A DNA stretch of 25,073 nt from a virus. A model generated the notes under the pieces. The model was not told the DNA's origin. It was given only the letters and a program-made list of their open reading frames with translations, and ran no database searches. The stretch spans positions 1-25,073 of the IMG/VR virus record IMGVR_UViG_3300037882_004954; one strand, given 5' to 3'. Both the position numbers and the translations under genes were made by a program. This document shows, one piece after another, positions 21,027-25,073 of this stretch (position 1 is the first letter of the stretch; the number at the start of each line of letters is the position of its first letter).

Positions 21027-21571
21027 TGGGGCTATCTACACTCATCCCGTGGCCGTATCGCGCCGTGGCGGGGCTCCTGTTGGTTCTGGCGGCGGTTTTG
21101 AGCGGCTTTGTGGTCGGCAAAAAGTGGGAGCAAGGCAAAGACGCGCGTGAATTTGTGGCCGCCACTGCGCGCGTGGCGAAGCAAGACAAAGCCGCACGGG
21201 TGGAGGTAGCCCGCGAGGCGGACAAATCAGAGGCGCGTGCAGAGCGCACGCGAATAATTTATCGTGACGTGATTAGAGAGGTGGTGAAATATGCAGAAAC
21301 TGACAATGGCCGCAGCGTTTGCCTTAATGCTGACTGGGTGCGGCAGCACGACCGTGCCGCCGCGCCCGACTTACCCGCGACCGGAGGCCAAGCTGCTGCT
21401 GCCGCCAGGCAGCCTGATGCCGATACCGCTGGCAGCGCCAGCAACGCCAGCAACGCCAGCATCCTCGCTGTCGTCGCCACCAACTACGAGACCTGCATCC
21501 GATGGCGAGAGCAGGTAATAGGCTGGCAGGCGTGGTGGCGAGCCGCAGGGCTGGCGTTGCAGCATGAGTGA
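21026..21571 (+). CDS. Rz: Rz-like inner-membrane spanin
   Basis: A 181-residue i-spanin candidate. An N-terminal membrane anchor (residues ~12-31, AVAGLLLVLAAVLSGFVVG) is followed by KKWEQGKDA and a long charged helix of coiled-coil type, as in Rz proteins. It spans from the inner membrane to the outer-membrane partner and fuses the membranes at lysis. The start ATG shares a base with the preceding stop (TGATG); GTG at 21023 is an alternative. The partner gene is nested entirely inside in another frame, which is the classic Rz/Rz1 arrangement and probably explains the Ala/Gln-rich low-complexity region near residues 110-145. Confidence 0.87.
   Translation: MGLSTLIPWPYRAVAGLLLVLAAVLSGFVVGKKWEQGKDAREFVAATARVAKQDKAARVEVAREADKSEARAERTRIIYRDVIREVVKYAETDNGRSVCLNADWVRQHDRAAAPDLPATGGQAAAAARQPDADTAGSASNASNASILAVVATNYETCIRWREQVIGWQAWWRAAGLALQHE
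21291..21518 (+). CDS. Rz1: Rz1-like outer-membrane spanin lipoprotein (nested)
   Basis: A 75-residue lipoprotein encoded in the +1 frame wholly within the Rz gene. The signal (MQKLTMAAAFALM) ends in a perfect lipobox LTGC with Cys17; Gly18 at +2 allows outer-membrane sorting. The mature 59 residues are proline-rich (PPRPTYPRPEAK, then PATPATPASS), the hallmark of o-spanins. An AGAGGTGG ribosome-binding box lies about six bases upstream. It would pair with the Rz-like protein across the periplasm. Confidence 0.9.
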   Translation: MQKLTMAAAFALMLTGCGSTTVPPRPTYPRPEAKLLLPPGSLMPIPLAAPATPATPASSLSSPPTTRPASDGESR

Positions 21572-22369
21572 TGGAGGCGCGGCGGCGCCGATCATCCCGT
21601 GGATCGGCGGCAAGAGCCGATTGTATGATCGGATCGTGGCGCTGATGCCGCCGCACACCTGTTACGTCGAGCTATTTGCGGGTGGTGCGGCGGTGTTTTT
21701 GAGGCGACCTGTCGCGGCAAAATCGGAAATTTTGAACGACGTAAATGGTGATCTGATTAATTTGTATCGGGTGGTGCAAAGCCATCTCGATGAGTTTGTG
21801 CGGCAGTTTGATTGGTCGCTCAATTCACGCGCGGTTTTTGAAAATCACCAATCGCACCCGGCGCAAAATCTGACCGACATCCAGCGTGCGGCGCGGTTTT
21901 TTTATTTACAGTGCAATTGTTTTGGTGGCAAGGTTGAGGGGCAGACTTTTGGCGTCGACTCCACAGGGGGGGGGGGCTCACGCGGCAAAAAATAGAGCAC
22001 AGCCTCGCTGCCGCGCATCGACGGCTGTGTGATGCGGTGATTGAGTGCGGGCACTGGCGGGCGTGCTTTGAGCGGTACGACCGCCCCTACACATTTTTTT
22101 ATCTCGATCCGCCGTACTGGCAGACCGATGGCTACGGTGTGGATTTTCCGTGGGCAGAGTACGAGGCCATTGCCGCCGCCATGCGCGGCGCCAAAGGTAA
22201 AATGCTTTTGTCGATCAACGACCACCCGGACATCCGGGCGCTGTTTGCCGGGCTGTGGATGGAGGGGTTGAGCATCGACTACACCATCGGCGGGGGCGTC
22301 AACGGCCATGTGACGCGCGGGGAATTGGTGATCGCAAACTACGCGCCGGGCGGCGATTTGTTTGGCTGA
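21564..22369 (+). CDS. Dam-type DNA adenine methyltransferase, out of frame at an 11-G tract
   Basis: D12-class N6-adenine methyltransferase. The first frame (21564-21995) encodes PWIGGKSR (residues 12-19) and the AdoMet-binding YVELFAGGAAVFL (34-46), then runs through poly-G (21966-21976) into TAG at 21993. The other half lies in a different frame, open from before the tract to 22369, and contains the catalytic DPPY (22106-22117) and LSINDHPDIRALF. Twelve or nine G would join the halves into a protein of about 268 residues, normal for the family, so only the tract length breaks the gene. It could be phase-variable or a homopolymer error. The product would methylate phage DNA. The start overlaps the Rz stop by eight bases. 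Confidence 0.85.
21966..21976 (+). repeat. Poly-G tract (11 G) inside the methyltransferase
   Basis: Eleven consecutive G lie between the AdoMet-binding half and the catalytic DPPY half. At this length the reading frame is broken; one more G or two fewer restores it. Long poly-G tracts are established slipped-strand contingency sites in several Gram-negative bacteria. Confidence 0.93.
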
Positions 22370-22436: not shown

Positions 22437-22703
22437 TTATTGCTTGGAAACGCCCGTATTTAATTGTTTTTTAATTTCAAATAATTCAAAAAACGCAGGA
22501 TGCATCCGCGCATCGCCCGCCTCCCACTGTCGCCAAACGCGATCTGTGGTGTGGACGAGTCGCGCGGCGGTGGTCTGTGTTAATGTGCCACGCGCGGCCC
22601 GCACCTCGGCTGGTGTTGGGTGGCGCAGTCGCCCTGCGGTTGTTGCGCGGATAAATGACTTTATAAAATCGCGCCAATCCTCCAGCAGCCACGCCGGTTG
22701 CAC
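22437..22703 (-). CDS. Small HTH DNA-binding protein
   Basis: An 88-residue (GTG start) or longer protein. Residues ~30-75 form a Cro/CI-like helix-turn-helix: PTPAEVRAARGTLTQTTAARL, VHTTDRVWRQWEAGD, then MHPAFFELFEI, a common phage regulator pattern. The start is uncertain: the frame is open for 26 more codons up to the stop of the upstream Aca2-like gene, with which it is in phase, and no clear ribosome-binding site precedes the GTG. Its first ~19 residues (QPAWLLEDWRDFIKSFIR) lie within the 126-bp repeat also present at the window end, so the N-terminus appears to be acquired by duplication. Last gene of the minus-strand cluster; probably a regulator. Confidence 0.75.
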   Translation of the reverse strand: MQPAWLLEDWRDFIKSFIRATTAGRLRHPTPAEVRAARGTLTQTTAARLVHTTDRVWRQWEAGDARMHPAFFELFEIKKQLNTGVSKQ

Positions 22704-22773
22704 CAGTGGCAGGCAGGCGCCGTCAGGTGTGCGACCAGCCTTGCAGATGGGGTCGGGCGGCAGCGCCAGCGGG
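22648..22773 (-). repeat. 126-bp direct repeat, copy A
   Basis: Aligns without gaps to 24915-25040 with about 14 mismatches (near 89% identity by eye), most of them in one ~28-base stretch; the first ~70 bases differ at only two positions. Both copies have the same orientation and code in the same frame on the minus strand (LPPDPICK.GR.PDG.CLPL, then the QPAWLLE segment). Copy A covers the start of the HTH gene and ends nine bases from the stop of the Aca2-like gene. Confidence 0.95.
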
Positions 22774-22781
22774 TTAGTTTT

Positions 22782-23243
22782 TTATAACGGTCCAACAGAA
22801 TTCAGCGCCCAAAGCTCTCTATTTTCTTGAGAATCAGCACGTCGGTTTAGCCATTTAAAATATTCGCCCGCATCAAATGCTACAAGCCTGACTAGGTCGC
22901 CGTATTCTGCGTGCAAATGCGCTAGTGCGGATTGCGCTGGTCGCCACAAAATGGCATCGGCCGGCCAGTCTTCGCTGCGACCGTAATACAGCAGCGCCAC
23001 GTTGTGAGAGCCGTCAATTGACTTACTCTCGGAGGCGGTTGCGCGCGCTGTAAACGCGTCAATTATTGTTGTTCGATAGTCGCACAGCTCGCGCATTCGT
23101 GCGGCGACATCATCAGGCACTTTGCGTTTACCGGCCTCCCAATGCTCCCACGCGCGGGTGGATGTGCCTGAGACAAGCAGCGCCGCCTCGGCGGTCGAGA
23201 AAAATAACAACCGGCGCAACGCCGCGATTTCGATTGCGATCAT
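22782..23243 (-). CDS. Aca2/YdiL-like (DUF1870) HTH regulator
   Basis: A 153-residue putative autorepressor. Residues ~4-52 are a helix-turn-helix of the YdiL/Aca2 type: ALRRLLFFSTAEAALLV, TSTRAWEHWEAGKRKVPDDV and a following RMRELCDYRTTIIDAF helix. The C-terminal part (AILWRPAQSALAHLHAEYGDL, residues 97-117) parallels the WRLSQSVAAL-type segment recalled from Aca2. Aca2 is known to repress acr-aca operons through inverted repeats at their promoter. Here the start overlaps the preceding stop (TAATG) and a GGGGAG box lies upstream, so it is coupled to the acidic 103-residue gene. Family assignment is from pattern memory; YdiL-type regulators also occur without anti-CRISPRs. Confidence 0.78.
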   Translation of the reverse strand: MIAIEIAALRRLLFFSTAEAALLVSGTSTRAWEHWEAGKRKVPDDVAARMRELCDYRTTIIDAFTARATASESKSIDGSHNVALLYYGRSEDWPADAILWRPAQSALAHLHAEYGDLVRLVAFDAGEYFKWLNRRADSQENRELWALNSVGPL

Positions 23244-23554
23244 TACGCGCTCCCCGGTTGATGTGATATGCCGCCGCCGCGCAAATCCTCCAGCACTGCC
23301 TCCTGCATTAAATCATCCTGTGTGGCGTTTCGTGCCCCGCCCCGCAGTAGGTGTTGGTGATACCAGCCCACCAATAGGCTTGCCACATTATCCTCGTGTG
23401 CGTTTTTAAAAATCGCCACATCAATATTGTTGGCAGCGCATATTTTTTCGATTGGCTCCCAATCAAAAACTACTTCGCCAGTTTTTATGCGATGCAGGTT
23501 CAGGTCGGCAAAATCGACATCATCGGGCACAGCTATTTTTTTGTATTCGTTCAT
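23243..23554 (-). CDS. Acidic 103-residue protein, function unknown
   Basis: An acidic small protein without signal peptide or membrane segment. The N-terminal half reads VDFADLNLHRIKTGEVVFDW and then PIEKICAANNIDVAIF; the C-terminal half reads DNVASLLVGWYHQHLLRGG and QDDLMQEAVLEDLRGGG, mostly helical. I have an impression of similar unnamed proteins beside phage and plasmid regulators but no function. The start at 23554 is chosen over ATG 23572 because AGGAG (minus strand, 23561-23565) is correctly spaced for it. It lies directly upstream of, and translationally coupled to, the Aca2-like gene, the usual place for an anti-CRISPR; that is guilt by association only. An antitoxin-like or other counter-defence role is equally possible. 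Confidence 0.8.
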   Translation of the reverse strand: MNEYKKIAVPDDVDFADLNLHRIKTGEVVFDWEPIEKICAANNIDVAIFKNAHEDNVASLLVGWYHQHLLRGGARNATQDDLMQEAVLEDLRGGGISHQPGSA

Positions 23555-23598
23555 TTTGATCTCCTGCCCCATCGTGTGAGGATGGGGGGCGGGGTTAA

Positions 23599-24507
23599 TT
23601 AAATTTTACAAAATCCATCGCGCAACTCCACAGCCTGTCTGCGTTGCGCTGCGATTACGGCGAGCGCCAAGCGGCGCGACTCCTCATTGTTGGTAGGCTG
23701 CGGCAAATTTTTTGCTAAGTAATGTGAGTTGATGTTGAGGTTGTGGCGTTGTGCAAATGCGCGGCTGCCATAGCTACAGTTGCCAGCAGATATGCTATCG
23801 GCGAGGCAAACATATATGCCGTTTTTAGATGCCTGTTTCAAAATTTTTGCATCACGCGCGGCGGCTTTTTTTGTTTCCGCGCGCTTGGTGGCGTTGGCCA
23901 CCAAAATCGCAACGATTGATTTAATGCCTGCGACGATATCGCCGCTGCTAGGGTGATAGTCAGCGCCGTCACGATTGCGGACAATTTTTATGCCGTTGGC
24001 ATCAGATGCCCAGCGGTAGCCGCGCGGGGCGACAAGCGCGATCTGTTGATCGGCAATGACTGCGCCTAATACTGAGCCATCGGCGCTAACGCGAGCGATT
24101 GATCTCATTTGTGGCGTGTAGTTGTAGCCTACGCGCCCACGATGAACGCCTTTGTAGTTAAATCCCTCTGATGACATGCCGTAGGCTGTAGATATGTTGG
24201 CCGCGACTGGCGCTTCCCAATTTTTTAGCCTTGGATTTTTAACCAGAGCCTCAAATTTTGCGTCGTATCCATGTTTTTTTCCGAGCGGGATTATTGTATT
24301 TTTACAATCAATTTCGCGCTGTAATTTTGGCGCCGCGCGCAATATATAAACGCGCTCGTGTTTTTTGATTTTTGCGCGCGCGATGCCTTTCGCTAATTTT
24401 TGCAGCTCACGCACTTGGCCGGCGTTGAACAAACCGCTCGAGTCGTAGCTGATTTTTTCCGTTTTGTTTAGCGCGCGATAAATTTTTAATGCGTTTTTCT
24501 TTGCCAT
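23599..24507 (-). CDS. Basic 302-residue protein, function unknown
   Basis: First gene of the minus-strand operon. Residues 1-95 are Lys/Ala-rich and helical (VRELQKLAKGIARAKIKKH). Residues ~100-190 are Gly/Tyr-rich and beta-like (STAYGMSSEGFNYKGVHRG, then RVGYNYTPQMRSIARVSADG) with a GADYHPSSGDIVAG turn. Residues ~200-225 are a charged Ala helix, and residues 233-256 read VCLADSISAGNCSYGSRAF, which looks like a conserved small domain with two Cys. An AGGAG box (minus strand, 24517-24521) supports the start, and a strong promoter lies about 50-80 bases upstream. The DNA is visibly more A/T-rich than the structural genes, hinting at separate origin. A nucleic-acid-binding role would fit its charge but is unsupported. 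Confidence 0.82.
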   Translation of the reverse strand: MAKKNALKIYRALNKTEKISYDSSGLFNAGQVRELQKLAKGIARAKIKKHERVYILRAAPKLQREIDCKNTIIPLGKKHGYDAKFEALVKNPRLKNWEAPVAANISTAYGMSSEGFNYKGVHRGRVGYNYTPQMRSIARVSADGSVLGAVIADQQIALVAPRGYRWASDANGIKIVRNRDGADYHPSSGDIVAGIKSIVAILVANATKRAETKKAAARDAKILKQASKNGIYVCLADSISAGNCSYGSRAFAQRHNLNINSHYLAKNLPQPTNNEESRRLALAVIAAQRRQAVELRDGFCKI

Positions 24508-24559
24508 GTTTGTGATCTCCTAGAGTATCGATCTGCCCAGTTGGCTATTCGATGGGTTT

Positions 24560-24588
24560 ATTATGTTCGCAAAAACGAACAGAGTCAA
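24560..24588 (-). promoter_or_regulatory. Sigma70-like promoter of the minus-strand operon
   Basis: On the minus strand TTGACT (24588-24583; consensus TTGACA) is followed by exactly 17 bases and CATAAT (24565-24560; consensus TATAAT), five of six matches in each box. An A/T-rich run upstream (about 24590-24621) resembles an UP element. Transcription should begin near 24553, about 45 bases before the 302-residue gene. Confidence 0.85.
24564..24581. promoter_or_regulatory. Operator-like perfect dyad in the promoter spacer
   Basis: TGTTCGcaaaaaCGAACA is a perfect 6-bp inverted repeat with a 6-base spacer. It fills the space between the -35 and -10 boxes and touches the -10, so a bound dimer would block RNA polymerase. 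The natural candidate ligand is the Aca2-like regulator of the same operon; the small HTH protein is the alternative. Confidence 0.82.
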
Positions 24589-24874: not shown

Positions 24875-24911
24875 CTAGTGGGCGTTTTCAGGCAAAAATG
24901 GTTGAAAACGC
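24864..24911. repeat. Two overlapping, mutually exclusive hairpins
   Basis: Hairpin 1: CGCCCA (24868-24873) with TGGGCG (24879-24884), loop TCTAG, extendable by A-T and G-U pairs on the + strand where TTTT follows. Hairpin 2: GCGTTTTCA (24882-24890) with TGAAAACGC (24903-24911), a perfect 9-bp stem with a 12-base loop. They share 24882-24884, so they cannot form together. They cover the TAG/ATG junction of the two minus-strand ORFs. Confidence 0.55.
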
Positions 24912-25073
24912 TCACGGATAAAAGACTTTATAAAATCGCGCCAACCCTCCAGCAGCCACGCCGGTTGCACCAGTGGCAGGCATGTGCCGTCGGGCGCTCT
25001 GCCTGATTTGCAGATGGGGTCTGGCGGCAGCGCCAGCGGGCGGCACACGCCGTCAGGCGCGCGGCCAGCCTTG
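24875..25073 (-). CDS. Partial Cys-containing 21-residue repeat protein
   Basis: Open reading frame entering from beyond the window and ending at TAG (24877-24875); the 5' end is missing. The visible part contains two tandem 21-residue units (KAGRAPDGVCRPLALPPDPIC and then KSGRAPDGTCLPL), each with a PDGxC and, in the linker, a PPDPIC. QPAWLLEGWRDFIKSFIRER and a short FQPFLPENAH tail complete the chain. The paired Cys and Gly/Pro content suggest small knuckles or disulfide loops. The same segment is duplicated at the HTH gene 2.2 kb away. No family was recognised; because the frame has few independent supports, it is a moderate-confidence call. Confidence 0.6.
   Translation of the reverse strand, partial: KAGRAPDGVCRPLALPPDPICKSGRAPDGTCLPLVQPAWLLEGWRDFIKSFIRERFQPFLPENAH
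24915..25040 (-). repeat. 126-bp direct repeat, copy B
   Basis: Partner of 22648-22773, same orientation and same coding frame on the minus strand. It lies within the partial Cys-repeat ORF near the window end, so the two copies bracket the promoter, the 302- and 103-residue genes, the Aca2-like gene and the 66-residue ORF. Confidence 0.95.
24986..25073 (-). repeat. 63-bp tandem repeat truncated by the contig end
   Basis: The GCCGTC-containing unit at 24986 recurs at 25049, a 63-base (21-codon) period, and the second unit is cut off by the end of the window. The partial ORF therefore contains an in-frame tandem repeat of unknown copy number. Confidence 0.8.

Follow-up and report, generated by a model that had tools for sequence, protein, structure and literature searches.

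Does an operon that is controlled like an acr-aca operon also carry genes that act against host defence? The question is raised by a minus-strand operon at one end of a virus record of 25,073 bases, the whole of which was analysed and is referred to here as the window. Operons linked to aca genes are the chief route to new anti-CRISPRs. An earlier note, made from the letters of this DNA, had read the locus as a 302-residue and a 103-residue protein followed by an Aca2-like autoregulator under a self-repressible promoter, and had proposed that the 103-residue protein, and less likely the larger one, may inhibit CRISPR-Cas or another host defence.

The record is probably a fragment, since its end falls inside a gene and replication genes are absent. 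From left to right it carries the terminase, portal, protease, capsid, tail and lysis genes of a tailed phage, with all names except that of the terminase assigned by reading the translations. The closest terminase among cultured phages belongs to a Burkholderia phage (51%), and the host is probably a betaproteobacterium. The operon is accessory and sits at the lysis end, opposed to the late genes. It lies beyond the lysis genes and also beyond a gene for a D12-class adenine DNA methylase (window 21564-22369), which is split over two frames near 21995-22037, a sign of either a pseudogene or an assembly error. The two genes upstream of the regulator, referred to here as the cargo (P302 and P103), have a GC fraction of about 0.50 compared with 0.576 in the first 22 kb. 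The promoter, operator and genes are arranged as follows.

24560 to 24588, minus strand: sigma-70-type promoter, TTGACT-N17-CATAAT, matching the consensus at 10/12 positions.
24564 to 24581, minus strand: putative Aca2 operator TGTTCGTTTTTGCGAACA, a dyad TGTTCG-N6-CGAACA that fills the spacer between -35 and -10.
23599 to 24507, minus strand: P302 gene (302 aa), an open reading frame with a variable N-terminus, a predicted beta domain (136-177), a long helix and a C-terminal ADSxxAGNCxxG domain.
23243 to 23554, minus strand: P103 gene (103 aa, acidic), an open reading frame with homologues.
22782 to 23243, minus strand: Aca2-type HTH repressor gene (153 aa), overlapping the P103 gene by TAATG.
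22437 to 22703, minus strand: small downstream HTH open reading frame (88 aa) with a GTG start and without a clear ribosome-binding site.

P302 and P103 both have homologues elsewhere and are therefore real genes; membership of the 88-aa frame in the operon is unsure. In a viral contig (L027), a P302 homologue is followed by an HTH gene similar to this frame (45% over 60 aa). The open reading frames agree with the gene series of the earlier note, including the coupling by TAATG, and its description of the 103-residue protein as acidic fits a pI of 4.86; P302 is very basic (pI 10.15).

The surroundings of the operon have features of their own. A 126-bp direct repeat (89%; window 22648-22773 and 24915-25040) flanks the operon plus a 66-aa gene, and each copy ends in a similar hairpin. 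About 195 nt, coding for the HTH part of the 88-aa frame, are missing from the upstream copy. The repeat could provide a route for gain or loss of the cassette via homologous recombination. At the edge of the record, a minus-strand frame (window 25073-24878) runs off the contig end and encodes repeated KAGRxPDGxCxPL peptides, with an inverted repeat of 13-nt arms (window 24878-24915) at its end.

The earlier note had placed the regulator in the YdiL/Aca2 family and named a profile search as the check, and that search bears the assignment out: the 153-aa protein matches Pfam PF08965 (Aca2_YdiL) with 64.4 bits and E 1.4e-17 against a cut-off of 23.8, and residues 1-116 align to profile positions 1-115. 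It also matches the solved Aca2 structures in the PDB (7EZY, E 6e-14; 7VJO, 8W35 and 7B5J, E 1e-11) and the Salmonella YdiL structure (1S4K, E 1.5e-5), and it aligns to the aca2 product of Pectobacterium phage ZF40 at 31% identity over 88%. In ZF40 Aca2, Arg30 of the recognition helix contacts DNA and is required for autorepression (PMC8434428); it aligns to R30 of the window regulator, so that even the residue number is shared. A tree of 20 relatives places the regulator, with 93/93 support, beside proteins from L113, L116, L097 and L098, the last two of which are solitary chromosomal genes. Because it falls outside the clade of experimentally proven Aca2 proteins, apart from ZF40 and L105, its sequence is best described as "Aca2-like, long form" and not as Aca2 in the strict sense.

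The promoter, with TTGACT beginning at 24588, CATAAT ending at 24560 and a spacer of 17, has a geometry identical to that of the aca2 operons of Pm86 and L117. Taken by themselves, the hexamers are not significant in the window (3 found, 2.9 expected). Unlike them, the dyad, its position and the genes downstream are the significant part of the evidence: the window has no second exact TGTTCG-N6-CGAACA, and the pattern turned up in 0/100 dinucleotide shuffles. The earlier note had located the minus-strand promoter with a dyad in its spacer correctly. The operator IR1 of the ZF40 acrIF8-aca2 operon, TGTTCGCGATTGCGAACA, has identical half-sites, agrees with the window dyad at 15/18 bases and occupies the equivalent promoter position. 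The same dyads, or co-varying ones, are found in aca2 operons elsewhere. A scan of viral contigs with the operator pattern returned mostly chance matches, with an adjoining aca2 gene in 3/24.

Between the promoter and the P302 gene, the transcript has a predicted structure of its own.

24526 to 24554, minus strand: leader hairpin 1 (predicted fold), with outer stem UCGA/UCGA, internal loops AUA/AGA, inner stem GCC/GGC and loop AACUG.
24516 to 24524, minus strand: leader hairpin 2 (predicted fold), CUC-UAG-GAG, which holds the Shine-Dalgarno GGAG.

The predicted folds of 16 other aca2 leaders and that of the window share a first hairpin whose 4-5 nt loop has A as its first and G as its last base; usually, a small Shine-Dalgarno hairpin comes next. 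Hairpin 2 is weak alone and has an equivalent position in most of these 17 leaders. Among 15 aca2 leaders other than that of the window, all 105/105 cells of the 7 pairs of hairpin 1 are standard pairs and 37 are double changes, in an alignment made by hand to the structure and padded with N, which biases the counts in favour of the structure. A covariance model (R2) built from these 15 leaders, with the window left out, finds the window leader as its top match when both strands of the 25 kb are searched (24552-24528, minus strand; 17.8 bits, E 0.039), and over 200 nt around the leader the E value is 3e-4. The second-best match elsewhere in the window scores 17.3 bits, nearly as high, and the result therefore serves as support and not as proof. 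The closest leader is that of L116, in which 3/7 pairs differ from the window by compensated changes. In 2024, binding of the ZF40 Aca2 to its own mRNA leader, in addition to DNA, was reported.

Taken together, the family, Arg30, the operator half-sites and the leader match argue well for Aca2 control at both promoter and mRNA, and an autorepressed operon with operator and leader is very probably what this sequence encodes. The self-repressible promoter of the earlier note thus gains strong support, and the leader RNA element is new to the picture. At the start of infection, the strong promoter would be free, and P302 and P103 would be made in a burst. The product of the last gene, an Aca2-type dimer, would occupy the dyad in the promoter spacer and block RNA polymerase. 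To judge from ZF40 Aca2, the dimer probably attaches to the leader hairpins as well, masking the ribosome-binding site. The operon would then be shut down at two levels. As for the products of the burst, P103 in the first place and P302 in the second, their most likely role would be to counter a host defence, for example CRISPR-Cas.

How far does such control predict anti-CRISPR cargo? In a published survey, an acr gene lay upstream of 35/1223 Aca2-like proteins, a base rate of 3% (PMC9410906). Among about 17 phage operons with both operator and leader, 3 carry a recognised Acr, a count based on ZF40 plus 4 other cargo genes checked: AcrIF8 in ZF40 (L029), an AcrIF9 homologue in L109 (E 3e-18) and an AcrIF6-like protein in L105 (E 8e-6). 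The cargo of the L116 and L114 operons has no PDB match. Operator and leader hairpins also accompany unnamed cargo in L101, L102, L103, L114, L116 and L067. Cargo of about 300 aa is found in the aca2 operons of L103 and L111/L112 as well, so the size of P302 does not exclude it. A survey for cargo homologues recurring beside aca genes, which the earlier note had put forward, went against its reading: neither P302 nor P103 has a homologue in the other 15-odd aca2 operons surveyed. Over their own lengths, the two proteins match no known Acr in PDB, Pfam, PHROGs or NCBIfam, in keeping with the remark that neither resembles a familiar anti-CRISPR. The regulator lies inside the Aca2/YdiL family and neither cargo protein belongs to a family of unrelated known function. 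Of the earlier interpretation, the Aca2-like autoregulator is strongly supported and the counter-defence role is plausible. No proven or homologous acr gene lies upstream of the regulator; judged by its sequence, the operon appears to be like acr-aca operons in control only.

The relatives of P103 are more informative than P103 itself, which receives no named function from Pfam, PHROGs, NCBIfam or PADLOC and whose AlphaFold model (pLDDT 65) has no significant fold match in the PDB. Its relatives are found on phage contigs (L002, L003/L004), on 8 conjugative plasmids and in 23/401 genomes of one family, which makes it a family of Burkholderiales, plasmids and phages with chromosomal members included. 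An empty scan of the genome collection with a two-row alignment was a false negative, overturned by the HMM search in genomes. The P103 relatives of L002, L003/L004 and L060 have an extra domain of some 40 residues fused to the N-terminus, and in L002, L004 and L060 this domain is homologous to residues 7-49 of AcrIF25 (E 1.8e-9, 1.7e-11 and 1.4e-9); the window P103 lacks it. From its sequence, we read this common domain as a putative ribbon-helix-helix (RHH) DNA-binding domain. An HTH gene comes after the P103 gene in L070. On chromosomes, many relatives are short stand-alone genes with tadA-, mpl- or aroF-like neighbours, and this speaks against a family that is purely anti-CRISPR. Some genomes show an expansion, with at least 8 copies of the family in G641 and 12 in G710. 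The RHH-fused P103 operons of L060 (4330-4480) and L002 (190-258) have no aca2 gene; the leader of each shows a GC hairpin followed by a small Shine-Dalgarno hairpin (CCCGG-N5-CCGGG, TCCTnATAGGA), not significant against shuffles. A direct repeat ATTGTTTyCCGTrCATwAAT surrounds the L002 promoter.

P302 likewise has no named family in Pfam, PHROGs, NCBIfam or PADLOC, and neither it nor P103 has a tblastn match among cultured phages. Back-translated scans for P302 and for the repressor alone returned nothing because single-sequence peptide patterns are too strict. Relatives were found with the degenerate pattern A-D-S-x-x-A-G-N-C-x-x-G: it hit 24 stretches of viral contigs, 14/24 of which encode P302 homologues by blastp (the family spans L019, L022, L013/L006, L018, L020, L015, L027, L012/L009, L007, L026, L011 and L028, and also L035). 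All share the C-terminal domain and differ in their N-termini. A stricter pattern found 3 contigs only among 85,000 prokaryote genomes, and among 399 genomes of one order searched with a profile L035 was the sole full-length homologue, with weak matches in 1 other genome. Since these searches returned so few matches, the family, though unnamed, is almost purely viral. The AlphaFold model of P302 is confident only over 136-300 (beta domain, long helix and helical C-terminus) and has no significant fold match in PDB or BFVD; the structure predictions that the earlier note had proposed thus gave no match for either cargo protein. The C-terminal region matches phrog_1196 weakly in 10/13 family members (best E 2e-5). 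In L022 (934-2556) and L027 (1764-3499), an RHH-like gene and then a small HTH gene come after a P302 homologue, a layout like P302-P103-Aca2 with unrelated partners. A fixed P302-RHH-HTH cassette is true of these two contigs and roughly of the window; other homologues are without it, and it is kept as a lead only.

Several readings of the cargo have to be weighed against one another. Anti-defence cargo is the most likely single reading, held tentatively, with other regulation of phage or host nearly as likely. In its favour are the operons of the same plan with known Acrs (ZF40/L029, L109, L105), the P103 relatives that carry the AcrIF25 N-terminal domain on phages and conjugative plasmids, the distinct GC content of the cargo and the adjoining DNA methylase gene. 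Against it count the low base rate together with the lack of an Acr match, of a fold match and of recurrence beside aca2. The length and high pI of P302 would be unusual in an Acr, its C-terminal domain is distantly related to a phage tail-region protein, and the clade of the regulator is shared with solitary chromosomal regulators, just as P103 has its stand-alone chromosomal relatives. The whole explanation, Aca2-type burst and shut-off with anti-defence cargo, falls somewhat short of an even chance. That the cargo inhibits CRISPR-Cas specifically is unlikely. A bolder version is more doubtful still: P103 would be a new anti-CRISPR family, the effector half of phage and plasmid proteins with an AcrIF25-type N-terminal domain, with a separate Aca2, operator and leader here replacing the built-in regulator and P302 forming a second, virus-restricted counter-defence family.

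The same Aca2-type control could equally serve accessory proteins of the phage whose task is the regulation of phage or host genes or host takeover, with P103 a partner of DNA-binding domains, P302 a nucleic-acid-binding protein and Aca2 keeping a costly early operon brief. This is a serious possibility, if short of the favoured one in plausibility only by a little. The ties of P103 to DNA-binding modules, fused (L002, L003/L004, L060) or adjacent (L070), are what it would lead one to expect, as are the RHH-like and HTH genes after P302 homologues in L022 and L027, the chromosomal P103 relatives near housekeeping genes and the high pI of P302; Aca2-like proteins are also known to control other genes (PMC8434428, PMC9410906). 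It fits less well with the known Acrs under this operator and leader in L109, L105 and ZF40, and with P103 relatives that travel on conjugative plasmids and share a domain with AcrIF25.

An operon of the toxin-antitoxin kind, in which P302 would be the toxin, P103 the antitoxin and the Aca2-like protein their shared repressor, is improbable. The gene order and predicted autorepression do resemble three-gene toxin-antitoxin operons, and the HTH of the regulator is weakly similar to the MqsA antitoxin (NCBIfam), a likeness of Aca2 noted in the literature (PMC9410906); yet neither Pfam nor PADLOC has a toxin family that P302 matches, and homologues of P302 and P103 occur together at no other locus found. 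Slightly less probable again is a remnant or mosaic, a regulator captured with unrelated neighbours and non-functional cargo, to which the flanking 126-bp repeat with its one HTH-deficient copy and the split methylase would point, since the three frames are intact, tightly spaced and coupled, and operator and leader are retained with their compensated stems.

With anti-defence cargo as the preferred reading, both cargo genes merit testing, given how well the regulator, operator and leader are identified. Two unnamed families gain a regulatory context, P302 with about 12 viral relatives and P103 with its members on phages, plasmids and in Burkholderiales, and the domain that P103 relatives have in common with AcrIF25 is a concrete lead.

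Set beside known systems, the operon shows its likenesses unevenly. P302 shares with PHROG 1196, labelled "tail assembly chaperone", an AGxCxxGxxxFxxRHxLD-like motif that is also present in L095, a true phrog_1196 protein in an apparent tail module. P302 differs in its 302 aa, its added N-terminal and beta domains and its place on the minus strand outside the tail module; as a PHROG 1196 tail protein it was rejected, the match being partial and weak (profile 33-87 of 128) and the gene lying past the lysis genes, on the other strand. AcrIF25 (PDB 8JDH, 8JDI) has N-terminal ~40 residues homologous to the extra domain of the P103 relatives in L002, L004 and L060. Its C-terminal domain, which removes Cas7 (PMC13131331), is unmatched in P103; a second stretch is not significant, and the window P103 is also without the N-terminal domain. 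The YdiL/SO3848-type regulators belong to the same Pfam family as the window regulator, which resembles 1S4K and groups with L097 and L098, but those genes are solitary whereas the window gene ends an operon with a putative Aca2 operator and leader.

The closest counterparts are aca2 operons. That of L116 (88-aa cargo, 154-aa Aca2) shares with the window ACTCTAGGAGAT, a 3' internal loop AGA, a compensated outer stem, membership of the long-form Aca2 clade and a similar operator, CTGTTCGTATTTTACGAAC; its single acidic cargo protein is unrelated. Compared with acrIF8-aca2 of ZF40, the window has two cargo genes, neither of them AcrIF8-like, and a longer repressor with a C-terminal extension that falls in a separate clade. 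Nevertheless, the two operons have in common the half-sites TGTTCG/CGAACA between -35 and -10, a leader hairpin followed by a Shine-Dalgarno hairpin, aca2 as the last gene, Arg30 in its product, and a position beside lysis genes with a methylase gene close by.
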